A stretch of DNA of 64,000 nt from assembly GCF_002090095.1 (NCBI RefSeq), contig NZ_BBRJ01000002.1:1043265-1107264 (forward strand). The letters are read 5' to 3'. Source of the DNA: Demequina sp. NBRC 110053. GTDB taxonomy: Bacteria; Actinomycetota; Actinomycetes; Actinomycetales; Demequinaceae. Positions 1 to 64,000 of the stretch are shown here, piece by piece; within the stretch, counting starts at the first letter, position 1; each line of letters starts with the position of its first letter. A program made the position numbers and the translations under genes. The notes beneath the pieces are model-generated. The model worked only from the letters and a program-made list of their open reading frames with translations, ran no database searches and was not told the origin of the DNA.

Positions 1-947
1 ACCGCGGCGGTCGCGATCAATCTGGCCCGCAACGAGGCGATCGGCTGGCTGCAGACGGGCGGCGCGATCGTCAAGATCGGCGGCATCGGGCTGCTCGCAG
101 TGGCGGCGATCGTCGCAGCGGGCGGCTCGTACGAGGCAGGGTCGGAGGGCCTGACCGCCGGCGCCAGTGCCGGAGGCTTCCTCGCTGCCACAGGACTCGC
201 CGTGCTGGCGTACAAGGGCTTCACGACCATCACCAATGACGGCTCCGAGCTCCGCGATCCGGCCCGCAACGTGGGACGCGCGATCTGGATCTCGCTCGCG
301 ATCTGCGCGGTCGTCTACGTGGTGGTCGCCATCGGGGCCGGCTCCTCCCTCAGCGTCGACGAGATCGTCGAAGCCCAGGACTTCTCGCTCGCGGAGGCCG
401 CGCGGCCTGCGCTCGGCGACGTCGGCGTGATCGCCACCGTCGCGGTCGCCGTGGTGGCGTGCCTCACCGGCCTGATCTCGTCCATGTTCGCCGTGTCACG
501 GATGCTGACCATGGTCACGGACATGCGGATGATCCCCACCGCCACCTCGGGATGCCAGGGGACGTGCGCCACCACATCCTGGTCTACCTGGGCGTGACGG
601 CCGCGCTGCTCGCCGTGAGCCTCGACCTGTCCCAGATCGCCGCCGTCGGCATCGTCTTCTACCTCATCATGGACATCGTCATCCACTGGGGCGTGCTGCG
701 ACGCCTGCGCAGCGAGGTAGATCCCAAGCCCGGCATCATCATCGCCGCGATCGCGGCCGACGCGGTGGTCCTCCTCGCCTTCACCGTCCTGCGAGGGATG
801 GAGTCACCGTGGATGATCGCGGGCGCCTACGGCGCCGCCGCCGCGGTCTTCGCGTACGAGGCCTGGTACCTCAGGCGGCACCCCGAGCGCGACTCCAATG
901 GATCCGGCGAGCACGAGTCGTCTTCCGCGGAGAGCGACGCGGACTGA
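1..947 (+). pseudogene. APC-superfamily amino acid permease, 5' cut by window, frameshifted
   Basis: The window opens inside a membrane transporter. Frame 1 encodes hydrophobic helices and the loop YKGFTTITNDGSELRDPARN, typical of APC-superfamily permeases, up to about base 537. The reading then jumps frame: the downstream frame gives HRHLGMPGDVRHHILVYLGV and continues through more membrane segments to the stop at 945-947. One extra C in the CCCC run at 534-537 would restore DMRMIPHRHLGMPGDV without interruption. As read, the product would stop at 597 and lose its last membrane segments and cytosolic tail. A sequencing error in the C run is as likely as a real mutation. Substrate cannot be told from this fragment. 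Confidence 0.75.
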
Positions 948-983
948 CCGAGCGCGCCCGACCCGGCACGCGCATCGGCGCTG

Positions 984-1718
984 CTAGCGGTACTCGGGGT
1001 TGGGGTGGCCGAACCGCTCCCCGTCCGTCCATGCCTCGGTCGAGTTGCCGCCCGACGGGAACCCGCCGCGGGACTTGAGCCACGCGGCCGTGTGCATGAG
1101 GTTCCATGCTTGAAAGGTGATGTTGCGCTGGGTGAACTCGGTCTCGGGCCCCCCCGAGCCTTCGTCGAGGTACGACGGCCCCGGGCCGATGGGACCGATC
1201 CAGCCCGCATCTGCGTTGGGAGGGATGGCGTAGCCGAGGTGCTGGAGCGAGTACAGGACGTTCATCGAGATGTGCTTCACGCCATCCTCGTTGCCGGTGA
1301 CGATCACGCCTGCAGTGCGGCCGTAGAAGAGGAACTGACCGCGGTCATTGGTCTCGCCCGACAAGCCGTACAGGCGCTCGATCAGCCTGGTCGCGATCGA
1401 TGACTTCTCACCCAGCCAGATGGGCGTGCCGACCACCAAGATGTCCGCCGCGAGGATGCGGCGGGACAGGTCGGGGAAGTCGTCGTGGTCGAGCCCTCCA
1501 CCGGGGACGTCCTCGCGCATATCTGGGTAGACGCCGGGCGGCACGTCGTAGTCCACCAGCCGGATCTGGTCCACCTCGACGCCCTGACCCTGCATGATGC
1601 GCACGGAGTCCTCCATGAGCCCCTGCGTGTTGCTGAGCGCCGGGTTGGGCTTGAGTGTGCAGTTCACGAACACGGCCTTCAGGCCGGTGAAGTCGTGCTG
1701 CTGTGCTGTGTCGGTCAT
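984..1718 (-). CDS. flavodoxin-fold NAD(P)H-dependent oxidoreductase
   Basis: A 244-residue cytosolic protein with a flavodoxin-like fold. Near the N-terminus KAVFVNCTLKPNP is the first strand and FMN-phosphate loop, and VVGTPIWLGEKSS (about residues 96-108) is the second flavin-contacting segment of the NADPH-dependent FMN reductase family. It probably reduces quinones or other small electrophiles using bound FMN; the substrate is not evident. The start is an ATG with a strong upstream AGGAGG (GGGAGGAGGTGCGACG). The C-terminal 50 residues are rich in Gly, Trp and Pro and extend beyond the core fold. It converges with the permease and reads in the same direction as the two genes to its right. 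Confidence 0.8.
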   Translation of the reverse strand: MTDTAQQHDFTGLKAVFVNCTLKPNPALSNTQGLMEDSVRIMQGQGVEVDQIRLVDYDVPPGVYPDMREDVPGGGLDHDDFPDLSRRILAADILVVGTPIWLGEKSSIATRLIERLYGLSGETNDRGQFLFYGRTAGVIVTGNEDGVKHISMNVLYSLQHLGYAIPPNADAGWIGPIGPGPSYLDEGSGGPETEFTQRNITFQAWNLMHTAAWLKSRGGFPSGGNSTEAWTDGERFGHPNPEYR

Positions 1719-1776
1719 CGTCGCACCTCCTCCCGGTGCGACACTGGCCGGGCCCCGCCTATTCCGAGGGCGACAG

Positions 1777-2034
1777 CTAGCGGGGGGTGACGTCCACGTA
1801 GGACGCCTGCTGGCTGAGCCGCGCCTCCCACTCGTTCTTCTCGCGCGTGGCGAGCATCACCACCACGCCCCACAGGCCCAGGTCGTCGATGAAGCCGAGC
1901 GGACCGAGCAGAAGCTCCGGGATCAGGTCGACGGGGCTGAGCGTGTAGATCACCGCGGCGACGGCCGTCAGCCACGTCGTGGGCGCGAGCTTGTGCTCGC
2001 CGCGTCGCACCGCCTGGAAGAACTTCCACCACAT
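1777..2034 (-). CDS. DUF1232 (YkvA-like) small membrane protein
   Basis: An 85-residue protein with the DUF1232 signature YTLSPVDLIPE at about residues 30-40, followed by a second hydrophobic stretch LGPLGFIDDLGLWGVVVML. Proteins of this family are small membrane proteins of unknown function, common in bacteria. The ATG at 2034 is preceded by AGGAGGTGTCCC, a near-perfect ribosome site. It lies between the reductase and the carbonic anhydrase, all on the minus strand, but spacings of 58 and 91 bases do not force an operon. Confidence 0.85.
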   Translation of the reverse strand: MWWKFFQAVRRGEHKLAPTTWLTAVAAVIYTLSPVDLIPELLLGPLGFIDDLGLWGVVVMLATREKNEWEARLSQQASYVDVTPR

Positions 2035-2095
2035 GGGACACCTCCTGTCCTCCTACGGTAACCCCGGCGGATGTGCGCGGCTTCCCGAAGACGAG

Positions 2096-2112
2096 GCCGA
2101 TGCGCGGGCTGG
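2096..2112 (+). repeat. 17-bp repeat GCCGATGCGCGGGCTGG, copy A
   Basis: Intergenic, just downstream of the carbonic anhydrase stop. Exact copies occur at 26938 and 47668 (plus) and at 17276-17292 (minus). Its first eight bases are the octamer that recurs across the whole window. Confidence 0.8.
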
Positions 2113-2794: not shown

Positions 2795-3562
2795 ATGGCA
2801 CGCATCCTCGTCACCGGTTCCGCCCAGGGCATCGGCGCCCAGACCGCTCGCGACCTCACCGCGCTCGGCCACCAGGTCGTGGTCCATGGACGTGACTCCA
2901 CCAGGGCCGATGCGGCACTCGCCGAGGTACCCGACGCGGAGGCCGTGGTCGCGGGCGACCTCTCGTCGCTCGCCTCCGTGCGGGAGCTCGCCGCCGCGGC
3001 CCGCCACGCGGGACCGTTCGATGCCGTGATCCACAACGCCGCCCTGGGGCCGGAGCAGGACGCTCCAGTCATCACCGAGGACGGCCTCGAGCGCCTGTTC
3101 CAGGTCAACGTGGTCGCGCCCTACGTGCTGACCTGCCTCATGCCGCTCAGCCCGCGCATGGTGTACATCGGCTCGGATGCGCACCGGTACGGGCGCGCCG
3201 ATCTGGGCGCACCCGGCCCTGACTGGACGGGCCACCAGGCGTACGCGGACTCGAAGCTGCTGCTGCAGATGTGGGTCTTCGAGCTGGCGGCGAGCGCGAC
3301 GCACGCGGCCATCAACGTCGTCCACCCTGGCTGGGTGCAGACCGCGATGGGCGGCCCCAACGCGACGCTGCCGCTGCGCGAGGGCACCGACACCCCTGTG
3401 TGGATGGCCACCAGCGACGACGACCTCGCACTCGGCTCCGGCGCGTTCGTGCACCGGCGCGCACAGGAGGACGTCAACCCCGCGACCCTCGATCACGACC
3501 AGCGCGCGGCCGTCGTGGCGCACCTCGAGGAGATCACCGGGCTGGTGCTCCCCACCAGCTGA
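2795..3562 (+). CDS. short-chain dehydrogenase/reductase (first of a tandem pair)
   Basis: A 255-residue SDR-family oxidoreductase. It has the Rossmann motif TGSAQGIG at 7-14, the HNAA element replacing NNAG at 80-83, and Tyr150/Lys154 of the YxxxK catalytic pair (YADSK). The substrate is unknown; NAD(P)H use is inferred from the family. The ATG at 2795 follows TAGGGT (2783-2788) by 6 bases with no Shine-Dalgarno, so the mRNA is probably leaderless. The neighbour at 3613 is a close paralogue of the same length with almost identical motif spacing, suggesting a local duplication. Confidence 0.88.
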   Translation: MARILVTGSAQGIGAQTARDLTALGHQVVVHGRDSTRADAALAEVPDAEAVVAGDLSSLASVRELAAAARHAGPFDAVIHNAALGPEQDAPVITEDGLERLFQVNVVAPYVLTCLMPLSPRMVYIGSDAHRYGRADLGAPGPDWTGHQAYADSKLLLQMWVFELAASATHAAINVVHPGWVQTAMGGPNATLPLREGTDTPVWMATSDDDLALGSGAFVHRRAQEDVNPATLDHDQRAAVVAHLEEITGLVLPTS

Positions 3563-3612: not shown

Positions 3613-4383
3613 ATGGCACGCATCCTCATCACCGGATCCTCCCAGGGCATCGGCGCCGAATGCGCCCGGCAGCTGCTCGACCTCGGCCACGAGGTGGTCC
3701 TCCACGCGCGCGACGGCCGCAGAGCCCAGGCCGCCATCGCCTCCAACCCGGGTGCCCTCGCCGTGGTGACAGGGGACCTGTCGAGCATCGAGGAGACCCG
3801 AGCCCTCGCATCGGCCGCGAACGAGCACGGCCCCTACGACGTCATCATCCACAACGCCGGCATCGGCGGCGGCGCGACCTCGCGCACCGAGACGGCCGAC
3901 GGGCTCGAGGAGATCTTCCAGGTCAACGTGGTCGGCCCGTACCTGCTCACCGCGCTCATGCCGATCGCTCCGCGGATGATCTACCTGACGAGCGGACTCG
4001 AGGCGGACGGCACGTGGGTGCCCGCCGACCTGCAGTGGTCCACGCGCGACTGGAACGGGATGCAGGCCTACTCCGACTCGAAGCTGCACGACTCGATGCT
4101 CGCGTTCGAGATCGCGAGCCGCCACCCTGAGGCGATCGTCAACGTCGTCGACCCCGGCTGGATCAAGACTGCGCTGGGCGGCGAGGACGCGTGGGACGAG
4201 GTCGAGGACGGCGCCGAGACGCAGGTCTGGCTCGCCGTCTTCGATGACCCCGCGGCCACGGTGTCCGGCCGCTACGTCAAGCGTCGCGAGACGTTGAATC
4301 CCAACCCGATCGTCGAGGACGCCGATGCGCGGGCCGGTCTGGTCGCTGAGCTCGAGCGGGTGACGGGCGTCTCGCTGGGATAG
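3613..4383 (+). CDS. short-chain dehydrogenase/reductase (second of a tandem pair)
   Basis: A 256-residue SDR paralogue of the preceding gene. It keeps TGSSQGIG at 7-14, HNAG at 80-83 and Tyr153/Lys157 (YSDSK), and shares the VNVV.PGW.(Q/K)TA segment. The two differ most in the loop before the catalytic Tyr (DLQWSTRDWNGM here) and in the C-terminal third, so substrates probably differ. TACGCT at 3601-3606 is 6 bases before the ATG, so it has its own leaderless-type promoter rather than being co-transcribed only. Its last codons contain GCCGATGCGCGGGCC, a coding instance of the window-wide repeat. Confidence 0.88.
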   Translation: MARILITGSSQGIGAECARQLLDLGHEVVLHARDGRRAQAAIASNPGALAVVTGDLSSIEETRALASAANEHGPYDVIIHNAGIGGGATSRTETADGLEEIFQVNVVGPYLLTALMPIAPRMIYLTSGLEADGTWVPADLQWSTRDWNGMQAYSDSKLHDSMLAFEIASRHPEAIVNVVDPGWIKTALGGEDAWDEVEDGAETQVWLAVFDDPAATVSGRYVKRRETLNPNPIVEDADARAGLVAELERVTGVSLG

Positions 4384-5387: not shown

Positions 5388-5520
5388 GAATGCTGCCCCT
5401 CCCCGTTGCACGCTCACACTAGCGGGAGGTGGCTCGAGCGCACGGCAGAGGGCCCGCGCTGTCGCAGGGCCGATGCGGTCGCTCGCGGTCGCCCCTCGCC
5501 CACCTGCGCCCACGGAGACG

Positions 5521-5699: not shown

Positions 5700-6860
5700 A
5701 TGACTGACCGCGTAGCCGCCGTGACGGCCGCATTCGAGGCCGCCTACGGCCGCCTGCCGACCGGGGTGTGGTCGGCGCCGGGACGCGTGAACCTCATCGG
5801 CGAGCACACCGACTACAACAATGGCTATGTGCTCCCGTTCGCGATCAACCGGCGGACGTGGGCCGCGGTGGGCATGCGCGAGGATCGCACCGTGCGACTG
5901 CGCTCCACGTTCGCGGACGGCGAGACCACCGCGAGCCTCGACGCGCTGAGCCCCGATGCCATGGGCGGCTGGAGCGCGTACGTGCTGGGCGTGGCGTGGG
6001 CGATGGCCGATGCGGGGATCGACCTGGGCGAGGCGTCCGGGCTCGACATCCTCATCGACTCCGACGTCCCGGTCGGCGCGGGGCTGAGCTCCTCGGCCGC
6101 GCTCGAGTGCGCGGCCGGCGTCGCGTTCACCGAGCTGTGGACGCTCGACCTGGACAAGATCGCCCTCGCGCGGATCGGCCGCGTCGCGGAGAACAAGGCC
6201 GTCGGGGCGCCCACCGGGTTGCTGGATCAGGCGGCGTCGATGCTGGGCGAGGAGGACCACGCGGTGTTCCTCGACTGCGACACCGAGGCAGCGCACCCAG
6301 TCCCGCTGCACCTCAAGCAGGAGGGACTCGCGATCCTGGTGATGAACTCGAACGTCGAGCACGAGCACGCCACTGGCGGCTACGGCGACCGCTTCGCGTC
6401 CTGTGCGAACGGCGCGAAGGCGCTGGGCGTGGCGACGCTGCGCGAGATCGGCGCCGATGACCTGACCCGCGCCGAGGGCGCCCTCGACGAGGAGACCTAC
6501 CGGCGCGTTCGGCACGTCGTGACCGAGAACCAGCGAGTCCTCGACACCGTGGACACGCTCGCCGCCGCGGGCCCGCGCGCCATCGGCGACCTGATGAACG
6601 CCTCCCAGGCTTCCATGCGCGACGACTTCGAGATCACCGTGCCCGAGATCGACCTCGCTTGCGACGCAGCAGTCCTCGCTGGCGCGGTCGGTGCAAGAAT
6701 GACCGGTGGCGGCTTCGGTGGTTCCTCTATCGCCCTCGTGCCTGCCGAGAAGGCCCAGGAGATCGCTTCGGCGGTGCAGGGCGCCCTCAGCGACGCCGGT
6801 CTGCGCGAGCCCACCATCTTCACCGTCGCGCCCTCGCAGGGCGCGCGTCGCGACCGCTGA
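5700..6860 (+). CDS. galK: galactokinase
   Basis: Phosphorylates galactose at C1 with ATP, first step of the Leloir pathway. The 386-residue protein has the galactokinase signature GRVNLIGEHTDYN at 28-40, the GHMP ATP loop PVGAGLSSSAALE, and the C-terminal GGGFGGSSIALV loop. I chose ATG 5700 (MTDRVAAV) over the overlapping out-of-frame ATG at 5696; GTGGAG lies just upstream. galE follows 17 bases later, so they form an operon. No galT is seen in this window, so the uridylyltransferase must be elsewhere or the order is split. Likely controlled by the neighbouring LacI repressor. Confidence 0.95.
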   Translation: MTDRVAAVTAAFEAAYGRLPTGVWSAPGRVNLIGEHTDYNNGYVLPFAINRRTWAAVGMREDRTVRLRSTFADGETTASLDALSPDAMGGWSAYVLGVAWAMADAGIDLGEASGLDILIDSDVPVGAGLSSSAALECAAGVAFTELWTLDLDKIALARIGRVAENKAVGAPTGLLDQAASMLGEEDHAVFLDCDTEAAHPVPLHLKQEGLAILVMNSNVEHEHATGGYGDRFASCANGAKALGVATLREIGADDLTRAEGALDEETYRRVRHVVTENQRVLDTVDTLAAAGPRAIGDLMNASQASMRDDFEITVPEIDLACDAAVLAGAVGARMTGGGFGGSSIALVPAEKAQEIASAVQGALSDAGLREPTIFTVAPSQGARRDR

Positions 6861-6877: not shown

Positions 6878-7855
6878 ATGACCTGGATGGTGACCGGCGG
6901 CGCCGGATACATCGGCTCGCACGTGGTGCGAGCGCTGACCGACGCCGGCATCGATGCGGTGGTCCTGGACGACCTGTCGAGCGGCTTCGAGAGGTTCATT
7001 CCTACGGGTGTCCCGTTCGTCAACGCGTCGATCCTCGAGACCGAGCGCGTGCGCGACGCCCTCGCCGAGCACCGCGTCAAGGGCGTCATCCACTGCGCGG
7101 GCTACAAGTACGCCGGCGAGTCCGTGAAGCACCCCATCCACACCTACCGCCAGAACGTCGAGGGGACGGCCTGCCTGCTCGAGGCGATGGCCGATGCGGG
7201 GGTCACCCGTCTGGTGTTCTCGTCGTCCGCCGGGGTCTACGGCACGCCCTCCGAGCCGGTGGTCACGGAGGAGACCGCGACGGCACCCGAGTCGCCGTAC
7301 GGGGAGTCCAAGCTCATCGGCGAGTGGCTGATCCGCGATCAGGTGCGCGCTACCGCGGACACCGACGCCCCGCTGCGCGCCACCTCACTGCGCTACTTCA
7401 ACGTCGTCGGCTCCGGCACCCTTGACGTCCACGACGCGTCCCCGCACAACCTGTTCCCCAAGGTGATCCGCGCCATCAAGGCGGGGCAGGCGCCGCTGAT
7501 CTTCGGCGACGACTACGCCACCGAGGACGGCACCTGCGTGCGCGACTACGTGCATGTCCAGGACCTCGCCCACAGCCACGTCGCCGCCGCCCGCATGCTC
7601 GACTTCGGGAAGCCCCTCGCGCCGGTGTACAACCTGGGATCCGGCGACGGCACCTCCGTGCGCGAGATCGTCGGGTCGCTGCTCGAGGCGGCCGGCTCCG
7701 ACCTCGAACCCGAGGTTCGCGAGCGCCGCCCGGGCGATCCCGCGCGCATCGTCGCCACCGGCGAGCTCGCCGCTGACGACATCGAGTGGAAGATGTCCCA
7801 CACCATCGAGGAGATGGCCGCGAGCGCTTGGGCCGCCGCTCCCGACGAGGACTGA
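6878..7855 (+). CDS. galE: UDP-glucose 4-epimerase
   Basis: Interconverts UDP-galactose and UDP-glucose with bound NAD. The 325-residue extended-SDR protein has the nucleotide motif TGGAGYIGSH at 6-15, the Ser in SSSAGVYG, the catalytic YGESK pair and the RYFNVVG segment that follows it. TAAGGAGAGG precedes the ATG by 6 bases. It is the second gene of the galK-galE operon. The product feeds galactose carbon to glycolysis and supplies UDP-galactose for surface glycans. Confidence 0.94.
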   Translation: MTWMVTGGAGYIGSHVVRALTDAGIDAVVLDDLSSGFERFIPTGVPFVNASILETERVRDALAEHRVKGVIHCAGYKYAGESVKHPIHTYRQNVEGTACLLEAMADAGVTRLVFSSSAGVYGTPSEPVVTEETATAPESPYGESKLIGEWLIRDQVRATADTDAPLRATSLRYFNVVGSGTLDVHDASPHNLFPKVIRAIKAGQAPLIFGDDYATEDGTCVRDYVHVQDLAHSHVAAARMLDFGKPLAPVYNLGSGDGTSVREIVGSLLEAAGSDLEPEVRERRPGDPARIVATGELAADDIEWKMSHTIEEMAASAWAAAPDED

Positions 7856-8881: not shown

Positions 8882-8991
8882 GGCGCCATCATCCCAAACC
8901 CGGCAGGCGCATCGGCCCGTTTGTCGCGGTGGCTGCGCGCCCCGTACGATGGGCGGGTCCTCGGCGCCTGGCCTGCCAGGCGTCGGACGGC

Positions 8992-9461: not shown

Positions 9462-10343
9462 ATGGCGCGCCTCCACGAGCAGCAGATCGACGTCCCCGAC
9501 GCGCTCGTCGATCGCCTGATCCGCGATCAGGCTCCCGCCTTCGCGGGGCTGCCGCGGCGACGGCTTCCCTCCGACGGCACCATCCATCGCGTCGACCTGC
9601 TGGGAGCCGATGCGGTGGCGAGGATGCCCTTCATCGACTGGGCCGGAGACGAGGCCGGAGACGACGCGCGGCGGGTTCCCGTGCTCGCCGCGGCCCTGGC
9701 GGAAGCGGGGATCGCCGTGCCAGAGGTGTTGCTGCGCGGCGAACCGTCCGCGGGCATGCCGTGGCCGTGGGGGATCTGGTCCCGCCTGCCGGGCCGGCAC
9801 CCGCGTCGCGGAGATCCCCACGACGAGGCCGCCGTGGCGCGTGGCGTCGCGGCGGCGATGGGCGCGCTTGCCAGCATCGACCTCCCCTGGCCGCCAGCCC
9901 CCGACCCCACCTTCCTCGCCACCGACGACGGCACGCGCGACAAGGTCGTCGCGCTCGGCTCGGCGGCTGCGCTCGCGGCGTGGGACGCCGCCACGGATCC
10001 GGGATCCGACGAGCGACCCCAGTGGATCCACGGCGACCTCATGCCAGGCAACCTGCTGCTGGAGGGCGAGGGCGCATCGGCCCGCCTGACCGGGATCATC
10101 GACTGGGGCGCCTCCGGCATGGGCGACCGCGGGTTCGACCTGCTCGCAGGGTGGGTGTGCATGGGGCCTGACGCGCGGGTGCTGCTGTTCGATGCCGCCG
10201 CGGCCACAGACGCCCAGATCGCACGATCGCGCGCGTACGCGGTGCGCAAGGCCGCATGGGGCATCGAGTACTACCGGGAGTCCCTGCCGGCTTTCGCGTC
10301 CACCCTGCGATACGCCCTTCGCCAGGCGGAGATGGAAGCCTGA
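9462..10343 (+). CDS. aminoglycoside phosphotransferase-family kinase
   Basis: A 293-residue APH/ChoK-fold phosphotransferase. The Brenner motif reads WIHGDLMPGNLLL (His190, Asp192, Asn197) and the metal-binding Asp214 lies in IIDWG. WSRLPG upstream matches the hinge region between lobes. Members phosphorylate antibiotics, amino alcohols or sugars; the substrate here cannot be read, and adjacent housekeeping genes do not suggest resistance. TAGAGT at 9450-9455 is 6 bases before the ATG, so it is likely leaderless and starts just after the tRNA terminator. Confidence 0.85.
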   Translation: MARLHEQQIDVPDALVDRLIRDQAPAFAGLPRRRLPSDGTIHRVDLLGADAVARMPFIDWAGDEAGDDARRVPVLAAALAEAGIAVPEVLLRGEPSAGMPWPWGIWSRLPGRHPRRGDPHDEAAVARGVAAAMGALASIDLPWPPAPDPTFLATDDGTRDKVVALGSAAALAAWDAATDPGSDERPQWIHGDLMPGNLLLEGEGASARLTGIIDWGASGMGDRGFDLLAGWVCMGPDARVLLFDAAAATDAQIARSRAYAVRKAAWGIEYYRESLPAFASTLRYALRQAEMEA

Positions 10344-11766: not shown

Positions 11767-12342
11767 TCACCATTCACCCGCGCTCTGTCGCACAGGTCGA
11801 GGCGAGGTCGCCGCCCAGGTGACCGCCGCATCGGCCCCCACCAGCGAGTCCGCGGTGACAGGTCCCGGCGCGATGGCCACCCCCTCGTGCTCGAGCAGCG
11901 CCGCCTTGATGCCGGACCCGCCGAAGCCGTACCCGCCCAGGCGCCCGCGGGCGGCGATGACCCGATGGCACGGCACGAACAGGCTGAGCGTGTTTTGGGC
12001 GCACGCCGTGCCGGCGGCGCGCATCGCGCGGGGCCTTCCCGCCATCTCGGCGAGCTCCGCGTAGCTCACCACCTCGCCAGCCGGGACCGTGCGCAGCGTG
12101 TCCCACACCTCGGTGAAGAAGGGGCTCCCCGTGAGCCGGACGGGAACGCGAGTGAGCGCGTCGGCGTCGCCGTCCTCCCACGCCGCGAGTGCCTCGGCGA
12201 TGCGTGGCAGCCGGCCGGGCTCGGTGCACGCAGCGCTCCCCGGTCGGAGCTCGGCGGCGTGCACCGTGCCGTCCGCGCTCGCGACCACATGCAGCGAACC
12301 GAAGGTGGTCGCGAAGTCGGCCGACACGAGCGTGGAGGACAT
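11767..12342 (-). CDS. ogt: methylated-DNA--[protein]-cysteine S-methyltransferase
   Basis: Suicide DNA-repair protein that moves alkyl groups from O6-alkylguanine to its own cysteine. The 191-residue protein has the active-site motif FVPCHRVIAARG with Cys125, the recognition helix MAGRPRAMRAAGTACAQN, and the GGYGFGGSGIKAALLEHEG end. About 30 residues beyond the usual C-terminus (VTADSLVGADAAVTW...) are extra. TAGATT lies 6 bases before the ATG at 12342, a leaderless signal. Confidence 0.93.
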   Translation of the reverse strand: MSSTLVSADFATTFGSLHVVASADGTVHAAELRPGSAACTEPGRLPRIAEALAAWEDGDADALTRVPVRLTGSPFFTEVWDTLRTVPAGEVVSYAELAEMAGRPRAMRAAGTACAQNTLSLFVPCHRVIAARGRLGGYGFGGSGIKAALLEHEGVAIAPGPVTADSLVGADAAVTWAATSPRPVRQSAGEW

Positions 12343-13165: not shown

Positions 13166-13238
13166 AGGCGCTGGGCGCACCAGTATCGACCACCACGGCG
13201 GACTTCTCCGCGCCGATGCGCGGGCCCGGCTGGCAGCG

Positions 13239-15818: not shown

Positions 15819-16249
15819 CAGCGATTCTCCTCGTCACGGTGAGGGGCCGATGCGCGGGTCGGCTCGTCATCCGACGTCGCCTCCGCTGCGCTCGCCGGTG
15901 CGACGGTCGGGTCTGCCTCGTCCACCCAGTCGACGGCCGCGTCGCGCTCCTTGGCTCGCTTGACGTAGCCGGGGCTGTCCCGGTCGAGCCAGACGGCGAC
16001 CAGCGCGGCGATGAGGCCGGCGAAGCACGCGAAGCCGAAGCCCACGACGAGCCCGACCGTGCCGCGCCCCACGCCCGTGGAGTTGGGCAGAATCATGCCG
16101 CACAGGAAGCCCACGACGAACCCCGCGACGGCTCCGGTCCCGATGATGCGCCCGTAGCGCGGCGCCCGGCGAAGGTGCGCTGGCAGAGCCTTGCGCTCGA
16201 GCTCCTCGGCCGACGGGGCGGCGGGGCGGCTCTCGGGAACGTCGCTCAC
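15818..16249 (-). CDS. small two-helix membrane protein upstream of purF
   Basis: A 143-residue protein of unknown function. Residues about 33-55 and 63-88 form two transmembrane helices (IIGTGAVAGFVVGFLCGMIL and VGLVVGFGFACFAGLIAAL), with an acidic C-terminal tail. The start is GTG at 16249, with TAGACT at 16256-16261 six bases before it, so this is the leaderless first gene of the purF-purM unit. The C-terminal codons contain the octamer with extension GCCGATGCGCGGG. I see no link to purine chemistry beyond co-transcription. Confidence 0.75.
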   Translation of the reverse strand: MSDVPESRPAAPSAEELERKALPAHLRRAPRYGRIIGTGAVAGFVVGFLCGMILPNSTGVGRGTVGLVVGFGFACFAGLIAALVAVWLDRDSPGYVKRAKERDAAVDWVDEADPTVAPASAAEATSDDEPTRASAPHRDEENR

Positions 16250-33518: not shown

Positions 33519-36698
<3,180 letters not shown>

Positions 36699-49314: not shown

Positions 49315-49392
49315 GCCCCCCATCCTGGCGCATCGGCCCCTCGCGGCGCCCTCGCACGCCGCTGCCCTCCCCCATCGCCCCAGCCGCGACAC

Positions 49393-50638: not shown

Positions 50639-51198
50639 CGCAGGAACACCGTGCCGGACTGGAAGGTGCGGCTCTCGGCCAGTTCGAGGTCCTCGCGGCG
50701 CCCGTCGTGAGCGAAGAACGGCGTGCCACCGCCCACGAGGACGGGATCGACGAACAGCTGGTACTCGTCGATGAGACCAAGCCCGGCGGCCTGCGTGGCG
50801 AGGTCAGCGCCGCCTATGGCGATGTCGCCATGCTCGTCAGTCTCACCTCCAGGCTCGGCGCGCAGGCGCTCGACCTCCTCGACGAGCCCTCCGGTCGCGA
50901 GCCGAGCCGATGCGTCCACCTCCTTGAGGGTCCGCGAGAACACGACCTTGGGCAGCGGGTTCCACAGCTCCGCCCACTCGCGCTCGGCATCGCCGAACGA
51001 TGCGGCCACGGCAGGGTCGTCCCAGTAGGCCATCGTCTCGTAGAGGCGCCGACCGAGCAGGTGCACGCCGACGCGGCGGATCTCCTCGATGTGGAACGCG
51101 AACACCTCGGGCGAAGGCTCCGACCAGTCGAATCGGCCGTCGCCGTCCATGATGTAGCCGTCGAGGGACAGGCCCATCGAATAGGTGACACGGCGCAT
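50620..51198 (-). CDS. dihydrofolate-reductase-family protein (RibD C-terminal type)
   Basis: A 192-residue protein of the RibD C-terminal/DHFR superfamily: SMGLSLDGYIMDGDGRFDW opening, LLGRRLYETMAYW, KVVFSRTLKEV, IGGADLATQAAGLGLIDEYQLFVDPVLVGGGTPFF. Members reduce unknown pterin- or pyrimidine-like substrates. The start ATG 51198 has GGAGGAGGG upstream; the longer reading adds 34 doubtful residues. A diverged paralogue lies head-to-head 129 bases away. Confidence 0.88.
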   Translation of the reverse strand: MRRVTYSMGLSLDGYIMDGDGRFDWSEPSPEVFAFHIEEIRRVGVHLLGRRLYETMAYWDDPAVAASFGDAEREWAELWNPLPKVVFSRTLKEVDASARLATGGLVEEVERLRAEPGGETDEHGDIAIGGADLATQAAGLGLIDEYQLFVDPVLVGGGTPFFAHDGRREDLELAESRTFQSGTVFLRYRVSR

Positions 51199-51327: not shown

Positions 51328-51984
51328 ATGACCCGCGTCCGCGTGGACCTGAACATCTCGCTCGACGGGTTCGCGACCACCACCGATCAGACGCCGAACA
51401 ACCCCTTCGGCGACGACTGGGGACGCCTCACAGCGGACTACGTGGCGACGCGCACGTTCCGCGAGCGCGTGCTGCACATGGCGGACGGATCTGGCACCAC
51501 GGGCGTGGACGACCGCTACGCCGCTCGCTACTTCGAGGACCTGGGTGCGGAGATCATGGGCGCCGCGATGTTCGGTCTCCACCTGCACGGCGACGATCCC
51601 GGCTGGCGCGGCTGGTGGGGCGAGGAGCCGCCGTTCCGCGTTCCCGTGCTGGTCCTGACGCATGCGCCGCGGCCTCCGATCCACTTCGAGAACGGCACCC
51701 GCTTCGAGTTCCTCTCCGCCACGCCACGCGATGCTCTGGCACGGGCGAAGGAGCTGGCCAGCGGCGGTGACGTGCGCATCGGCGGCGGTCCGACCACCGT
51801 GCGGGCCTTCCTGCGCGAGGGGCTGGTCGACAGCCTTCACGTCGCCATGGTGCCGATCCTGCTGGGTCGCGGCGAGTGGCTATGGCAGGGGCTGCGTGGC
51901 CTCGAGGCCGGCTACCGGGTCGAGTCCGAGACCGCGCCCAGCGGCGTCACGCACCTCACCTTCGAGCGCGAGGCGGCCTCGTAG
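51328..51984 (+). CDS. dihydrofolate-reductase-family protein (RibD C-terminal type)
   Basis: A 218-residue paralogue of the divergent gene to its left: VDLNISLDGFATTTDQTPNN, EIMGAAMFGLHLHG, PVLVLTHAPRPPIHFENGTRFEFLS, IGGGPTTVRAFLREGLVDSLHVAMVPILLGRGEWLW. It is longer in the middle loop. AGGAG lies 7 bases before ATG 51328. An octamer with GCTCGGGCTGG extension (51989) follows its stop by 4 bases. Confidence 0.88.
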   Translation: MTRVRVDLNISLDGFATTTDQTPNNPFGDDWGRLTADYVATRTFRERVLHMADGSGTTGVDDRYAARYFEDLGAEIMGAAMFGLHLHGDDPGWRGWWGEEPPFRVPVLVLTHAPRPPIHFENGTRFEFLSATPRDALARAKELASGGDVRIGGGPTTVRAFLREGLVDSLHVAMVPILLGRGEWLWQGLRGLEAGYRVESETAPSGVTHLTFEREAAS

Positions 51985-52014
51985 CAGGGCCGATGCTCGG
52001 GCTGGCTGGTGCGC

Positions 52015-54302: not shown

Positions 54303-54779
54303 TCAGCACACCCAGGCGTACTCGATCTCCGTGGTCGTGAGCCATGTCGCGAGCTCGCCGTTGTCCGAGGACCAGTGCGCGAAGCCGTTGGCGTACACGA
54401 CCAGCGTGCCGGTGTCGTCGCCGGGCTCAGGGGCGACCACCGTGCGCAGGTGAGAAGGACGCAGCGCCGATGCGCGGGCGAAGCCAAGGTTCGCGTCACC
54501 AGGAATGGCGGAGAGTGCGACACCGCTCGCCTCGCTCTGGGGAAAGTCCCAGGTGTTGGCGGGCGTGAACGGGTAGTAGGTCGTGTCGCCAGCGATCAGC
54601 GTCTCGTTACCGCACGCCGGGTAGTACTCGACGCCCGCGACGGTGTGCACCACCTCGCCGGGTGTTCCGAGGTCGAGCTCCTCGTCCCAGTCGATCGGAC
54701 CGGCCGGACCGTTCCCAGCCGCCGCGCACCCGGCGAGCACCACTCCACTCAACGCCACAGCGACACCCAGCGCGCGCAT
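54303..54779 (-). CDS. hypothetical lipoprotein
   Basis: A 158-residue protein with a signal peptide ending VVLAGC (lipid Cys18) and a short Gly/Ala tether. The mature part (VVHTVAGVEYYPACGNETLIAGDTTYYPFTPANTWDFP) resembles no family I know. Cysteines near residue 56 and at the C-terminus could form a disulfide. It lies 41 bases upstream of purS but has no overlap. The octamer with GCGCGGGC extension lies in its coding sequence at 54466. Confidence 0.75.
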   Translation of the reverse strand: MRALGVAVALSGVVLAGCAAAGNGPAGPIDWDEELDLGTPGEVVHTVAGVEYYPACGNETLIAGDTTYYPFTPANTWDFPQSEASGVALSAIPGDANLGFARASALRPSHLRTVVAPEPGDDTGTLVVYANGFAHWSSDNGELATWLTTTEIEYAWVC

Positions 54780-55421: not shown

Positions 55422-56138
55422 ATGAGCGCATGGGTTCAGGCCGCCTCGACGCCGGACATCGTCGACTCGGCGCTCGGGACCCTGCGAACCGCGCTCGAAT
55501 ACATCGGCACGGTCGCCTTCGCGATCTCGGGGGCCGTGGCGGCCGGCCGCAAGCGCATGGACGTGGTCGGAGCGATCGTGCTCGCCTGCATCGTCGCCGT
55601 CGGCGGCGGAACCCTGCGCGACGTGCTCCTCGACGAGCCCGTGTTCTGGATGGTCAGCCCATCCTTCCTGCTCGTCGCCGCGGCGGTAGGGCTGATCGTG
55701 GCGCTGCTCGCGCGGTGGCATCCGCCGGACCGCCTCGACCGCTACCGGATCGTGCAGCTGTCGGACGCGGCCGGGCTCGCGGTCTTCGTGGTGGTCGGCA
55801 CGGGCATCGCGCTGGACTCCGGCGCCTCCGCGATCACCGCCGCCGTCATGGGCGTCATCACCGGCGTGGGCGGCGGCGTGGTGCGCGACATGCTCGCCAA
55901 TGACGTGCCGGACGTCTTCCGCAACGGCCAGTTCTATGCCACCGCAGCGCTCGCCGGGGCGGCGTCGTACGCGCTGCTGCTCTGGCTCGACGTCCCTCGC
56001 CATGTCGTGTTCTGGGTGCCGATCGTCGTGGTGCTCGCGGTGCGCATCGGCTCCCTGCGCTTCGGGTGGGGCGTGCCGACCATCGGCGGGAAGCCGGTGG
56101 ATCTCACTGCGCACGACGAGCCGCGCGAGTCCGCCTAG
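55422..56138 (+). CDS. trimeric intracellular cation channel (UPF0126) family membrane protein
   Basis: A 238-residue protein with seven helices and two internal repeats, each with a glycine-rich turn and Arg-Asp: VGGGTLRDVLLDEP and VGGGVVRDMLANDVP. These are the pore signatures of bacterial TRIC-type channels, thought to pass monovalent cations. TACGCT at 55409-55414 lies 7 bases before the ATG. Its stop overlaps the convergent purC by four bases. Confidence 0.92.
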   Translation: MSAWVQAASTPDIVDSALGTLRTALEYIGTVAFAISGAVAAGRKRMDVVGAIVLACIVAVGGGTLRDVLLDEPVFWMVSPSFLLVAAAVGLIVALLARWHPPDRLDRYRIVQLSDAAGLAVFVVVGTGIALDSGASAITAAVMGVITGVGGGVVRDMLANDVPDVFRNGQFYATAALAGAASYALLLWLDVPRHVVFWVPIVVVLAVRIGSLRFGWGVPTIGGKPVDLTAHDEPRESA

Positions 56139-57031: not shown

Positions 57032-58302
57032 CAGGAGTCGGCCTGGTCCGTCGCCGCCGCGAGGGCGATGTCGGTGCGGTGGTGGGAACCCGCGAGGCCG
57101 ATGCGCGACAGCGCCTCGTACGCCGTCGCCCGAGCATCGGCCAGGCTCGCGCCGCGCCCGATCACTGACAGCACCCGGCCGCCCGCGCTCACCAGCTCGA
57201 GCGCGTCGTTGGTCGCGGTCCCGGCGTGCAGCACGTGAGCACCGTCCACGGCCTCGGCCTCGTCGATGCCGGTGATCACATCGCCCGAGCGTGCGCTCTC
57301 CGGGTAGCCGTGGGAGGCGAGCACCACGGTGACCGCCGCGTCCTCACTCCATTCGAGCGGCGGGAGCTCAGCGAGCCTGCCCTGGGCCGCGGCGAGCAGC
57401 ACCTTGCCCAGGGGCGTCTTGAGGCGCGCCAGCACCGATTGCGTCTCCGGGTCGCCGAACCGAGCGTTGAACTCGACCACCCGCAGCCCCTTGGACGTGA
57501 GCGCGAGACCGCAGTACAGGACGCCCTGGAACGGGGTGCCGCGGCGAGCCATCTCGTCCACGGTGGGCTGCGCGACGGTCTGCACGACCTCCTCGACCAA
57601 GCCCGGCGGCGCCCAAGGCAGCGGGCTGTACGCACCCATGCCGCCGGTGTTGAGACCCTGGTCTCCGTCGAACGCGCGTTTGAAGTCCTGGGCGGGCTGG
57701 AGCGGCACCACGGTCGCGCCGTCGCAGATGCAGAACAGCGACACCTCGGGGCCGTCGAGGTACTCCTCGATGACCACGGTGCCGCCGGCCGCGATGATCG
57801 CCTCGCCGTGCTCGGTCGCCTGCGTGAGGTCGTCGGTGACGACCACCCCCTTGCCCGCCGCGAGGCCGTCGTCCTTCACGACATACGGGGCGCCGAACTC
57901 GGCGAGCGCCGCGGCCAGCTCTGTGGGGGTGATGCACACTCGCGGCTCGGCGGTGGGCACCTCGGCCGCCGCCATGATCTCCTTGGCGAAGGCCTTCGAG
58001 CCCTCGAGCATCCCGGCCGCAGCGGTGGGGCCGAAGCACGCGATGCCCACCTCCCTGACCGCGTCCGCGACACCTGCGACCAGCGGCGCCTCCGGCCCGA
58101 CGACCACCAGGTCGGCTCGCACGTTCACCGCGAGGGAGGCGATCGCCACGCCGTCGTTCGGGTCCTGCGAGTGCAGCGTCGCCAGAGCGCCGATGCCAGG
58201 GTTGCCGGGGACGGCGTGGAGCTCGGTGACGCTCGGGTCGAGGTGGAGGGAGCGGGCGAGCGCGTGCTCGCGGGCCCCGGAGCCGACGATCAGTACCTTC
58301 AC
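57031..58302 (-). CDS. purD: phosphoribosylamine--glycine ligase
   Basis: Joins glycine to phosphoribosylamine, step 2 of purine synthesis. The 423-residue ATP-grasp enzyme has VGSGAREHALA, VVGPEAPLVAG, VVKDDGLAAGKGV, NTGGMGAYSP and EFNARFGDPETQ. I placed the start at GTG 58302, giving VKVLIVGSG; TAGACT at 58310-58315 lies 7 bases before it, so transcription probably begins at the GTG. The longer reading adds eight residues upstream of the -10 box. Confidence 0.96.
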   Translation of the reverse strand: MKVLIVGSGAREHALARSLHLDPSVTELHAVPGNPGIGALATLHSQDPNDGVAIASLAVNVRADLVVVGPEAPLVAGVADAVREVGIACFGPTAAAGMLEGSKAFAKEIMAAAEVPTAEPRVCITPTELAAALAEFGAPYVVKDDGLAAGKGVVVTDDLTQATEHGEAIIAAGGTVVIEEYLDGPEVSLFCICDGATVVPLQPAQDFKRAFDGDQGLNTGGMGAYSPLPWAPPGLVEEVVQTVAQPTVDEMARRGTPFQGVLYCGLALTSKGLRVVEFNARFGDPETQSVLARLKTPLGKVLLAAAQGRLAELPPLEWSEDAAVTVVLASHGYPESARSGDVITGIDEAEAVDGAHVLHAGTATNDALELVSAGGRVLSVIGRGASLADARATAYEALSRIGLAGSHHRTDIALAAATDQADS

Positions 58303-58868: not shown

Positions 58869-60167
58869 CTACTCGCCGCGGGCGTGCAGCAGGTCGTGGT
58901 TGACGATGATCTCGTCGCGGCCGGGGCCGACCCCGATCGCGGACACCCGGCAGTTCGAGATCTTCTCGAGCGCGAGCACATAGTCCTGCGCGGTCTGAGG
59001 CAGGTCGGAGAACTCGCGAGCGCCCGAGATGTCCTCGGACCAGCCGGGCAGGTACTCGTACACCGGCGTCGCGGCGGCGAAGGCGGCCTGGTCCTGCGGC
59101 AGCTCCTCGTGACGCACGCCGTCCACCTCGTAGGCGACGCACACCGGAATCTCCTCGAGCCCCGTCAGCACGTCGAGCTTGGTGAGGACCAGGTCCGTGA
59201 GCCCGTTGACCCGAGCGGCATAGCGAGCGATGACCGCGTCGTACCAGCCGCATCGGCGCTGACGTCCCGTCGTGGTGCCGAACTCGTGTCCCACGCGCGC
59301 CAGGAACTCGCCATTCTCGTCGAACAGCTCGGTAGGCATGGGGCCCTCCCCCACGCGGGTCGTGTACGCCTTGACGATGCCGATCACGGAGTCGATCCGC
59401 GTGGGTCCCACGCCGGAGCCGGTCGAGGCGCCGCCCGCGGTGGCGGACGACGACGTCACGAACGGGTAGGTGCCGTGGTCCACGTCCAGCATGGTCGCCT
59501 GGCCCCCCTCGAACAGCACGGTCTCGCCGCGGTCGAGCGCCTGGTTGAGAACCAGCGACGTGTCGGTGACCATGGGCTCGAGGCGCTCGCGGTACTGCAG
59601 CAGCTCCTCGGCGACCTCGTCGACCGTGATGGCGCGGCGGTTGTAGACCTTCACCAGCAGGTGGTTCTTCTGCTCGAGGGCGCCCTCGATCTTGTCGCGC
59701 AGCAGCTGCTCGTCGAACAGGTCGCCCATGCGGATGCCGAGGCGGTTGATCTTGTCCGCGTACGCGGGTCCGATGCCGCGGCCCGTGGTGCCGATCTTGC
59801 GCTTGCCCAGGAAGCGCTCGGTGACGTTGTCGAGGGTGCGTGCGTACGGAGCGATCACGTGAGCCGCGTTCGAGATCAGCAGCTTGGACGGGTCGACACC
59901 ACGCTCGATGAGCGCGTCGATCTCGCTGAAGAGCACCGAGATGTCGACCACCACGCCGTTGCCGATCACCGGCACGACGTCCGGCGTGAGGATGCCGGAA
60001 GGCAGCAGGTGCAGCGCGAACTTCTGGTCGCCGATCACCACCGTGTGACCGGCGTTGTTGCCGCCGTTGAACTTCACCACATAGTCGACGCGGCTTCCCA
60101 GCACGTCGGTGGCCTTGCCCTTGCCCTCGTCGCCCCACTGGGCTCCGACGATCACCACTCCGGGCAT
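58869..60167 (-). CDS. purA: adenylosuccinate synthase
   Basis: First committed step from IMP to AMP, using GTP and aspartate. The 432-residue protein starts [21 protein letters not shown], with [26 protein letters not shown] and [20 protein letters not shown] further on. ATG 60167 has GGGAGTGGGCG upstream. Single gene, 190 bases downstream of fbaA with a terminator between. Confidence 0.97.
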
Positions 60168-60304
60168 CTCGCCCACTCCCCTCACCCCGGTCCTGGCCGG
60201 GGGCTTGGTGTCAGCGGGGCGTTCGCCCCGTCTTGTTATCGGCCGATGCGCCCGTCACCTGGACAGGCCATGCCCAGTCGAGCGGGCGCCGGCCCGTGCG
60301 TAGC

Positions 60305-62454: not shown

Positions 62455-62533
62455 CCCGCGCCTCCTCATCGAAGGTTCAAGAATACGGGCACCTGGGTTG
62501 GCGCGTCGTGCGAGCCGCTGGCGTGTGGGTCTG

Positions 62534-63205
62534 TCAGCCGTGGCCGGCGGCGATGTCGCCGTGCTCGCAGATCCAGGCGTGCATCGCGATCGCTGCGGCC
62601 GCGCCAGCGTTGATGGACCTCGTCGAACCATACTGCGCGATGGCCAGAGTCGCATCGGCCACCTCGCGCACGGCGTCCGACAGGCCCACGGACTCCTGAC
62701 CGAACACCAGCACGCAGCTGCGCGGCAGCGCCGCCGTCTCGAGAGGGACCGAGCCCGGCAGGTTGTCGATGCCGATGACGTCGAGGCCCGCGCCATTCGC
62801 CCAGGCGACGAACTCCTCGAAGCTCGGGTGATGACGGACGTGCTGATAGCGGTCGGTCACCATGGCCCCGCGCCGGTTCCAGCGTCGGTTGCCGATGATG
62901 TGGACCTCGCGGGCCGCGAACGCGTTGGCGGTCCGGACCACCGAGCCGATGTTGAAGTCGTGCTGCCAGTTCTCGATGGCGACGTGGAACGGATGCCGGC
63001 GCTGGTCGAGGTCGGCCACGATCGCCTCGTGTCGCCAGTAGCGGTAGCGATCGACCACATTGCGGCGGTCGCCGTCGCGCAGCAGCTCCGGATCCAGCCG
63101 GGGGTCCGCCGGCCAGGCGTCCGCCTCTCCCGGCCATGGCCCCACTCCGTGCGGGAGCACATCACCTGAGTCCCCGGGAACACCGGCATCAGCCACGCGG
63201 ATCAC
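62534..63205 (-). CDS. SPOUT/TrmH-family RNA methyltransferase
   Basis: A 223-residue SAM-dependent RNA 2'-O-methyltransferase: HVAIENWQHDFNIGSVVRTANAFAAREVHIIG, VLVFGQESVGLSDAV and STRSINAGAAAAIAMHAW are motifs 1-3 of the knotted SPOUT fold. The target (tRNA or rRNA) is not readable. The N-terminal extension of about 50 residues before the fold is acidic. Start codon choice is GTG 63205 or GTG 63196; the furthest ORF start is a TTG. It overlaps the end of the upstream gene, so the two are coupled. Confidence 0.86.
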   Translation of the reverse strand: MIRVADAGVPGDSGDVLPHGVGPWPGEADAWPADPRLDPELLRDGDRRNVVDRYRYWRHEAIVADLDQRRHPFHVAIENWQHDFNIGSVVRTANAFAAREVHIIGNRRWNRRGAMVTDRYQHVRHHPSFEEFVAWANGAGLDVIGIDNLPGSVPLETAALPRSCVLVFGQESVGLSDAVREVADATLAIAQYGSTRSINAGAAAAIAMHAWICEHGDIAAGHG

Positions 63206-63935
63206 GCTGCCAGTCCCAGACAAAGTCCGGGATGCCGCTGCGCACGGACTCGAGGGTCGGCAGCCACTCGTCGACCCATCGAAGATCGCCGCCGGGCGCC
63301 CTCCCGACCAGCACCAGCGTCGAGTCCTCGATGATGACGCTGACGATGCTCGCAGGCGCAGCGCTCAGCGCGGCGATCACGGTGGGTGCCAGAACGGCGT
63401 GCGCGACCGCCTCATCGTCCGCGCCTGCCCGCCATCGATCGTTGAAGGCATGCGACTCGACGAGAACGTCATGCGCCCCGGTTTCGAGCACCCCGGCGCC
63501 GAGAAACCGTGCGGCAACGGTTCCTGGCGACAGCACCATGAGAGGAGTCGGCCCCGGCAGGGACGTGGTGAGGACGCGCCAGTCGAGGGTGTCCTCGCCC
63601 GGTCCCTTCGGATCGGGTCGTGCGACCCGGAACGTGTACGCAGTGAACGGCCATGCCGCGCCGCCTCCGTTCACGACGTCGAAGACACGCCGGAGCTCCC
63701 CCTGGTCGAAGGGCGGGGAGGAGAATCCGTAGGTGATGGGCGACCCTGTGGCGGCATACGACCAGCCTCGGGACGCTGCTGCCCGAGCGATCCGGTTCCG
63801 TTCGGGCTCGCGCTCGTCGATCGGCGCCGCCTTCTGGTGGCGGTGAATCACGATCATGCCCACGACGATGGCAAGGGTGAAGAGCACGATCCAGCCGAAC
63901 TGGACGACCTTCACCGCACCATCGAGCGCGCTCAT
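63189..63935 (-). CDS. membrane-anchored hypothetical protein
   Basis: A 248-residue protein with one N-terminal helix (VVQFGWIVLFTLAIVVGMIVI) and a cytosolic or exported domain of mixed structure (SRGWSYAATGSPITYGFSSPPFD...DWRVLTTSLPGPTPLMVLSPG...VLVGRAPGGDLRWVDEWLPTLESV). No family recognised with confidence. It starts one base after a protein end likely of the same operon, and its 3' end overlaps the methyltransferase gene. Confidence 0.68.
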   Translation of the reverse strand: MSALDGAVKVVQFGWIVLFTLAIVVGMIVIHRHQKAAPIDEREPERNRIARAAASRGWSYAATGSPITYGFSSPPFDQGELRRVFDVVNGGGAAWPFTAYTFRVARPDPKGPGEDTLDWRVLTTSLPGPTPLMVLSPGTVAARFLGAGVLETGAHDVLVESHAFNDRWRAGADDEAVAHAVLAPTVIAALSAAPASIVSVIIEDSTLVLVGRAPGGDLRWVDEWLPTLESVRSGIPDFVWDWQRDPRG

Positions 63936-63936
63936 G

Positions 63937-64000
63937 TCAGAACTGGACGCTCGGCGCCTCGCGAGTGCCGGGATCGACCACCTCGAAGTAGTCCTCGCGC
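63937..64000 (-). CDS. C-terminus of a gene running out of the window, possibly LemA
   Basis: Only the last 20 codons are inside the window: REDYFEVVDPGTREAPSVQF then stop. The YFEV.D/A....P.VQF ending resembles that of actinobacterial LemA-family membrane proteins, but this is too little to be sure. It would be the first gene of the unit containing the two genes to its left. Confidence 0.35.
   Translation of the reverse strand, partial: REDYFEVVDPGTREAPSVQF

Follow-up and report, generated by a model that had tools for sequence, protein, structure and literature searches.

A strand-balanced genomic word with dialects in Demequina, a probable DNA uptake sequence in a Gram-positive genus

The DNA uptake sequence (DUS) of the Neisseriaceae recurs about once per kb. 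Together with the Pasteurellaceae, this family is named in a paper of 2025 as one of the only two known to use such words (PMC12616744), and in Haemophilus influenzae 1,465 copies of the 9-mer of the uptake signal sequence (USS) are reported, under-represented in coding and constrained genes (PMC7811141). Among the matches listed in our search of the open-licence literature, no title or abstract start reported an uptake-sequence system in Actinobacteria. Here we analyse the octamer GCATCGGC (read as GCCGATGC in the opposite orientation) in a stretch of 64,000 nucleotides from Demequina sp. NBRC 110053 (contig NZ_BBRJ01000002.1, positions 1,043,265 to 1,107,264; hereafter the window), in the genome from which it comes (G000; 2,500,272 bases, 3 contigs), and in a comparison set of 36 other Demequina genomes and 22 genomes from other families of the order. 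A search with one protein of the window yielded three records, each from Demequina (86, 74 and 70% identity), which points to the same genus. We put the probability that this word is a DNA uptake sequence of the Demequina type IV pilus/ComEA/ComEC machine at roughly two in three; recognition of the word by this machinery, and a resulting bias in uptake, are what we infer.

The window held 59 exact copies, of which 29 read GCATCGGC and 30 read GCCGATGC on the forward strand (Table 1). The original prediction, made by eye from the window, had given about 55, split about evenly between the orientations and lying both between and inside genes; with our own gene caller, 15 of the 59 were intergenic and 44 coding. 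In 100 dinucleotide-preserving shuffles of the window, the octamer occurred 9.8 times on average and 18 times at most. A third-order Markov model and a test of strand skew had been suggested as checks. Under the former, GCATCGGC was the top over-represented octamer of the window (59 vs 11.9 expected), and longer words containing it were more extreme, with 46 copies of CGCATCGGC against 4.4 expected and 24 of CGCATCGGCC against 1.2. It again ranked first (369 vs 86.3) in a 445-kb sample of G000, made up of the window and 20 further stretches, one of these just 1.1 kb; under a fifth-order model (369 vs 206.1) it ranked second behind the overlapping word CCGATGCG. The whole genome contained 1893 copies, or about one per 1.3 kb, against 312 occurrences of the reversed word, which served as a control, and the orientation was balanced (967 forward, 926 reverse). 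The over-representation of the octamer is therefore confirmed.

A compositional or codon-pair artefact could produce such a signal, and the reading frames of the word are indeed biased. Of the 264 coding copies in the 445-kb sample, in which a simple home-made caller found 406 genes (88% coding), 108 read GCC-GAT-GC (Ala-Asp-Ala), 96 have ATC-GGC in frame, 48 read GCA-TCG-GC and 12 fall in other frames; in the window, the Ala-Asp-Ala frame accounts for 18 of the 44 coding copies. The octamer is also up to 2.8-fold more frequent than its reverse in some other families. However, synonymous-codon shuffles within each gene (n = 100) yielded 92 coding copies on average and never more than 111. Codon use thus fails as an explanation, and a codon-preserving shuffle with a similar count, which the original prediction had named as the result that would overturn it, did not occur. 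The prediction had also noticed that in-frame Ala-Asp-Ala copies use GAT, the Asp codon that these genes otherwise seem to avoid, and this was borne out: GAT makes up 108 of the 171 Asp codons in the GCC-Asp-GC context vs 1143 of 8381 (14%) in other contexts. Between genes, CGCATCGGC occurred 96 times against 5.5 (third-order Markov) or 12.6 (fourth-order) expected in the 445 kb. Together with the dialect-dependent conservation described below, the synonymous shuffles and the intergenic Markov tests already refute an artefact for the bulk of the signal, and we regard that explanation as scarcely credible.

The remaining copies of the 445-kb sample comprised 103 that were intergenic and 2 at gene edges, giving a density of 1.86 per kb between genes against 0.68 per kb in coding DNA, a 2.7-fold difference. 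When gaps of 20-1500 bp were sorted by the direction of their flanking genes, convergent gaps held 19 copies (3.15 per kb), tandem gaps 56 (2.55 per kb) and divergent gaps 16 (1.33 per kb). In the tandem gaps, 28 copies pointed along the genes and 28 in the opposite direction; their orientation is therefore unlike that of promoters or terminators. Intergenic copies share a longer, asymmetric consensus, approximately aCCaGCCCGC-GCATCGGC-sCT, with a one-sided upstream arm before the octamer and [CG]CT after it. Coding copies retain chiefly the C at position -1 (67% of 264, vs 94% of 102 intergenic copies). The fuller unit spans at least 9-10 bases, (C)GCATCGGC(C), plus the upstream arm in intergenic copies. 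Some copies build perfect inverted hairpins, 21 bp from start to start, near gene ends (stretch L025 at 4069, 4507 and 5505). Within L025:4069-4535 there are two perfect hairpins of inverted extended-word copies, the first lying 25 bp past a stop codon.

Across the genus, the ratio of the octamer to its reversed word ran from about 1 to 9 (36 genomes), and in the 22 genomes from other families from about 0.7 to 2.8. Stretches of the relatives revealed that some Demequina genomes poor in GCATCGGC have a different, related word instead. These dialects share the scheme GC[A/G]TCG[G/T][C/G]C around a fixed inner core, and comprise GCATCGGCC, GCATCGTCC, GCGTCGGGC and perhaps GCGTCGGCC. Counted in whole genomes, GCATCGTCC had 929-1700 copies in 13 of the 36 genus genomes and 49-275 in the other 23, with 153 in G000. 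GCGTCGGGC had 1206 copies in G009 and 1101 in G012, and none of the other 34 exceeded 370; it reaches 567 in other families, being a common GC-rich word there. The base at -1 varies within the first type, G000 having 667 CGCATCGGCC and 36 AGCATCGGCC where G010 has 146 and 736, and some GCATCGTCC genomes carry a share of the other dialect, as does G022 with 483 copies of CGCATCGGCC. By our own ratio cut-offs, the 37 genomes fall into 17 with GCATCGGC, 13 with GCATCGTCC, 2 with GCGTCGGGC and 5 that are weak, G003 included.

In a test with 15 synonymous shuffles, from which G010 was left out, samples of six genomes (G034, G014, G026, G004, G009 and G012) had their own 9-mer 2.5- to 8.3-fold over the shuffles in genes, with the other three dialect words at 1.7-fold or less; in all six the own 9-mer was denser between genes than in genes. 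The own word of G000 stood at 3.5-fold in the same test and the other dialect words at 1.5-fold or less. In 23 kb sampled from the culturable strain NBRC 110056, CGCATCGGC occurred 17 times vs 1.7 expected. GCGTCGGCC, one base off the own word of G009 and G012, was also raised between genes in these two genomes, and G003 gave a milder GCGTCGGCC signal, 2.4-fold in genes and 0.26 per kb between genes, with an intergenic density that was not higher; its standing as a fourth dialect is accordingly uncertain. G005 was sampled at one 3.4-kb locus only. No clear word was found in samples of G001 (110 kb) and G028 (120 kb), and an early candidate in G028, CCGACCCCGC, was dropped because it is mostly confined to one locus.

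A tree built from LepA, LeuS and HolA, covering 34 of the 37 genomes and with five nodes of support below 0.8, placed 11 GCATCGTCC genomes in a single clade, outside which G004 stood; G029 was not among the 34. Four genomes, G004, G012, G001 and G028, are close kin with differing states, and G009 and G012 share their word without being neighbours; dialects therefore switch. Our partial survey of other families, in samples of 40-100 kb (G037, G040, G041, G043) and 20 kb (G042, G046, G056, G057) compared with 60-100 kb Demequina samples, met no word of Demequina strength, local repeat arrays in G037 excepted. These arrays (L116, L118, L119) are inverted and consist of TGATCATGCA repeats, a different dispersed repeat. 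In a 20-kb stretch of G056 (L093), GAGGCATCC is scattered over both strands, with 8 occurrences vs 0.3 expected (342, 9907 and 17470 on the forward strand; 3029, 3053, 15324, 15699 and 15708 on the reverse), and may represent either a further enriched word or an effect of coding. G043 has GCTCGCGCA 21 times in 60 kb vs 2.5 expected.

We then asked how the word fares in alignments with relatives. At 10 distinct gap-free aligned sites of the window, the octamer was identical in 7 of 8 cases in the Demequina record L053, 4 of 5 in L054 and 4 of 4 in L055, vs 28, 19 and 18% of other octamers of the same letters. In 13 relatives of the same dialect, the GAT inside the word was kept in 39 of 62 conserved Asp cells, compared with 119 of 468 where the GAT codon lay elsewhere (Fisher p ~1e-8). 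The corresponding figures in 13 relatives of the B dialect (GCATCGTCC), of similar overall identity, were 16 of 55 and 71 of 459, and in-word retention differed between the two groups at p ~4e-4. Same-dialect relatives matched the whole octamer in 100 of 202 gap-free cells, drawn from 64 sites, and B-dialect relatives in 45 of 229, drawn from 46 sites. The p-values are too small, since cells share sites and ancestry, but the direction of the trend is clear: the word is retained where the local dialect is that word. The view of a selected genomic word, which the original prediction had put forward, is thus supported by Markov controls, codon controls and dialect-dependent conservation alike.

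The same alignments indicate how copies originate. With gaps counted, the 214 cells in same-dialect relatives comprised 98 that were the same, 98 substituted and 18 gapped, so that absence of the word took the form of a substitution in 98 of 116 cells and of a gap in 18; the reverse comparison gave 98 same, 102 substituted and 23 gapped (125 differing cells). Gapped cells are excluded from the identity counts above and included here, with slightly different site handling, and the alignments are mostly coding DNA, in which intergenic copies are under-sampled. Copies arise mostly by substitution, not insertion. A dispersed mobile or repetitive extragenic palindromic (REP)-like repeat would agree with the stretch of up to about 24 bases that intergenic copies share and with the perfect hairpins near some gene ends. 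However, 264 of the 369 copies are coding, in few tolerated frames, and the predominance of substitutions over gaps speaks against it as well, making a mobile repeat highly improbable.

Orientation and spacing bear on another group of explanations. Across 19 stretches of the 1.96-Mb contig, in which the origin was not mapped, there was no strand heterogeneity (chi-square p = 0.93), and spacing was Poisson-like, with a mean of 4.17 and a variance of 3.89 copies over 88 bins of 5 kb, one of them empty. The lowest stretch, with 4 copies in 20 kb, was a ribosomal-protein/elongation-factor locus, the single such stretch. Even spacing is what a binding site of some abundant protein that organises or segregates the chromosome (nucleoid, SMC, matS or FtsK type, the last including the FtsK-orienting polar sequences, KOPS) might display. 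However, KOPS need strand polarity, and no skew changing at origin and terminus was seen either in the genome-wide count or in the 19 stretches of the one contig. The balanced orientation contradicts a polar segregation or recombination mark; a segregation mark was among the functions originally proposed. The paucity of copies at the ribosomal-protein locus also tells against an organising site, the specificity of which would, moreover, need repeated switching between near relatives; we consider it quite unlikely.

The word may instead be a Chi-like site regulating a double-strand-break repair helicase-nuclease of the AdnAB or RecBCD type. We know of no intergenic preference with a long flank, and of no dialect switching within a genus, in Chi. 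Chi sites are likewise short non-palindromic words enriched genome-wide, with overrepresentation described mainly in the core genome, but they are polarised on the leading strand in E. coli (PMC8022716), whereas every stretch sampled here is strand-balanced. A Chi-like role is thus unlikely. Methyltransferase sites differ between close relatives, as do the Demequina dialects, and the word might be linked to methylation or restriction, or be of the HIP1 type and tied to an orphan methyltransferase. HIP1 is itself an octamer enriched genome-wide and discussed with orphan methyltransferases (PMC4390886). However, the Demequina word is non-palindromic, its flanking arm is some 10 bases long, and it is over-represented, not avoided; a methylation link does not alone explain enrichment, and this explanation is very unlikely. 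A HIP1-type repeat, another of the functions first proposed, is contradicted by the long asymmetric flank of a non-palindromic word, and the uptake-like signal from the same list fits best.

If the word is an uptake sequence, a machine for uptake should be at hand. G000 carries an uninterrupted type IV pilus operon (L096) with pilB, pilT, pilC, pilA, three pilin-like or pilus genes, pilD and pilM; two further genes are pilN and pilO by position and appearance, Pfam giving no family for pilN and only a sub-threshold T2SSM match for pilO. The genome also has comEA-comEC-holA with open reading frames (L033), and dprA is present. A search for PilB-type ATPases covered 24 genus genomes and found one in each. 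These genes make uptake possible rather than prove it. In G009, comEC was matched as two overlapping pieces, as if its frame were split (G009:C1:2039413-2040200 and L089). The minor-pilin part of the pilus operon (L096, L097-L115) falls into distinct types whose distribution departs from the species tree, which suggests exchange between species.

We considered two candidates for a receptor, and both were rejected. One is a lone pilin of about 138 amino acids with two C-terminal cysteines, syntenic at a metE-GNAT locus (L136-L143, L156-L174), which has metE and/or a GNAT gene as a neighbour in 25 of 31 loci examined (neighbours assigned through short text matches). No copy was seen within 1.5 kb of metE in G000, G011, G020, G021 or G027; the metE locus of G000 has a leucine-rich-repeat gene where the pilin would sit, and a whole-genome profile search of G000 returned the operon PilA and two pilin-like proteins only. 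It is divergent in G006 and G023, the dialect being unchanged. The other candidate, the minor-pilin block of the operon, is of the same type in G000 (GCATCGGC) and G009 (GCGTCGGGC) despite their different dialects, and in G016, of the same dialect as G000, the block genes were not matched. On contig C3 of G000, a DUF2510 protein with an apparent single membrane helix and a pilin-like second half (L199:1525-2070, forward strand) matches the lone-pilin profile, and weaker matches of this kind occur in many genus genomes.

Several observations weigh against an uptake sequence. The type IV pilus, comEA/comEC and dprA are widespread in the order and therefore weak evidence; 57 of 59 genomes had a comEC match, among them other families without the word, and comEC had to be rejected as a discriminator. 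G001, which shows no clear word, has a pilus operon and comEA-comEC, G028, likewise with no clear word, has at least comEA-comEC and pilins, and G009 keeps strong words though its comEC looks split. As to a ComP-like receptor, the lone pilin is absent in G000 and truncated in G014 (it is whole in the near relative G034), and both G000 and G014 are word-rich; either it is not the receptor, or its loss is so recent that the word has not yet decayed. Pilin type does not follow dialect (minor-pilin blocks were seen in 20 genomes). Intergenic one-mismatch neighbours of CGCATCGGC numbered 72 vs 60.7 expected, where decay would predict an excess; we therefore no longer take them for decaying copies, and recognition looks sharp across all nine bases. 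Close inverted pairs are not in excess either (19 vs 17.9 expected), unlike in Neisseria, and were dropped as a general feature, though some copies do form the perfect hairpins with 21-bp phase described above. Our literature search found no uptake experiment. Finally, we slightly lowered our confidence on account of the gapped cells (18-23) and because other families were surveyed only in part.

Nevertheless, the word resembles uptake sequences as described (PMC3630211, PMC7811141, PMC12616744) in its density, its equal orientations, its flanking consensus and its preference for intergenic DNA, and also in its dialects and its origin by substitution; these features fit DUS and USS, and they speak against Chi, KOPS, HIP1 and mobile repeats. 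We propose that the tag would consist of at least CGCATCGGCC and a looser upstream arm, aCCaGCCCG, and that the type IV pilus/ComEA/ComEC machine would prefer free DNA carrying it. Tagged alleles might then spread as tagged DNA of kin is taken up and recombined more often, and point mutations would build up the word on both strands at any site that tolerates it, with the highest density between genes. Should the preference of the machine shift in a lineage, its whole genome would drift to a new dialect. We think it somewhat better than an even bet that Demequina represents a third uptake-sequence system that evolved independently, unprecedented both in Actinobacteria and among Gram-positives, whose several dialects within one genus switch between near relatives and are read by a receptor other than the ComP-like lone pilin. 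If true, such a case in a Gram-positive phylum would show that self-tagging of DNA evolves repeatedly, also in cells that lack an outer membrane. With its dozens of sequenced species, its several dialects and its close kin of unlike dialect, the genus would lend itself to tests of how specificity shifts, of whether the words come from drive alone and of what protein reads them. To our knowledge, Demequina includes no pathogens, and placing the right word on DNA might allow these little-studied bacteria to be transformed.

Table 1. Exact matches to GCATCGGC in the window, with placement according to the home-made gene caller; L053, L054 and L055 are aligned Demequina records.
Position	Strand	Placement	Upstream arm	Remark
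972..979	+	intergenic
2096..2103	-	intergenic	agccagcccgc
5469..5476	-	intergenic
8909..8916	+	intergenic
13212..13219	-	intergenic	gggcccgc
17285..17292	+	intergenic	gccagcccgc
25694..25701	+	intergenic
26938..26945	-	intergenic	cccagcccgc	octamer identical in L053
32599..32606	+	intergenic	ccccgcccgc
42702..42709	-	intergenic
43976..43983	+	intergenic
47668..47675	-	intergenic	cccagcccgc
49330..49337	+	intergenic
51989..51996	-	intergenic	gccagcccga
60242..60249	-	intergenic
2829..2836	+	gene
2906..2913	-	gene
3647..3654	+	gene
3808..3815	+	gene
3860..3867	+	gene
4321..4328	-	gene
6006..6013	-	galactokinase gene
7190..7197	-	gene
9606..9613	-	gene
10074..10081	+	gene
11828..11835	+	called gene (weak call)
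15846..15853	-	called gene (weak call)
17088..17095	-	gene
18963..18970	-	ABC transporter permease gene
20212..20219	-	gene
21128..21135	+	called gene (weak call)
22311..22318	+	purL
22707..22714	+	purL
23231..23238	-	purL
26671..26678	+	gene		octamer identical in L053
27021..27028	+	gene		octamer identical in L053
28601..28608	-	gene		octamer identical in L053
29601..29608	+	gene		L053 has GCATCGGG
35292..35299	+	gene		octamer identical in L053, L054, L055
35487..35494	-	gene		octamer identical in L053, L054, L055
37641..37648	-	gene		octamer identical in L053, L054, L055
40129..40136	-	gene
40744..40751	-	metal P-type ATPase gene		octamer identical in L054, L055
42415..42422	+	metal P-type ATPase gene		L054 has GTGACGGT
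43141..43148	-	gene
44832..44839	-	gene
45272..45279	-	gene
46042..46049	+	gene
48410..48417	+	dGTPase-like gene
50588..50595	+	gene
50906..50913	-	gene
51776..51783	+	gene
54466..54473	-	gene
56044..56051	+	gene
57097..57104	-	gene		inverted copy 37 bp away
57134..57141	+	gene		inverted copy 37 bp away
58189..58196	-	gene
59250..59257	+	purA
62652..62659	+	gene

The window also carries a palindromic intergenic repeat around GCGAGTTGGGCCCAACTCGC, at 5527, 5567 and 47756. Of TTGGGCCCAA there are 13 copies in the 445-kb sample, all intergenic by our gene calls and some paired 40 bp apart.

To conclude, the Demequina word shares features with several described systems and differs from each. The DUS of the Neisseriaceae, with the minor pilin ComP as its receptor, is likewise described as an enriched word, about 9-12 bases long, whose several dialects keep a fixed inner core and which favours permissive and intergenic sites (PMC3630211, PMC12616744). 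The Demequina word is unrelated to it, belongs to a Gram-positive host from another phylum, has neither a tied ComP-type receptor nor a general excess of inverted pairs, and its uptake bias is presumed. With the USS of the Pasteurellaceae it has in common a 9-base core with a flanking consensus and an origin by point mutation (PMC7811141); the word is another one, however, its flank is GC-rich and upstream where that of the USS is AT-rich, and this single genus has more dialects than the two USS types named in PMC12616744. Chi is also a non-palindromic octamer enriched genome-wide, but is polarised on the leading strand (PMC8022716), which the Demequina word is not. HIP1 of cyanobacteria (GCGATCGC), again an octamer enriched genome-wide (PMC4390886), is palindromic, whereas the Demequina word is asymmetric with a long one-sided arm. 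The main text of a paper on the actinobacterium Micrococcus luteus does not use the term 'uptake sequence' (PMC8467076). As in Demequina, a comEA-comEC operon is present in M. luteus, where it is required for transformation, but that species has Flp/tad pili (PMC8467076), whereas the pilus operon of Demequina is of the classical type IV kind and includes PilT.

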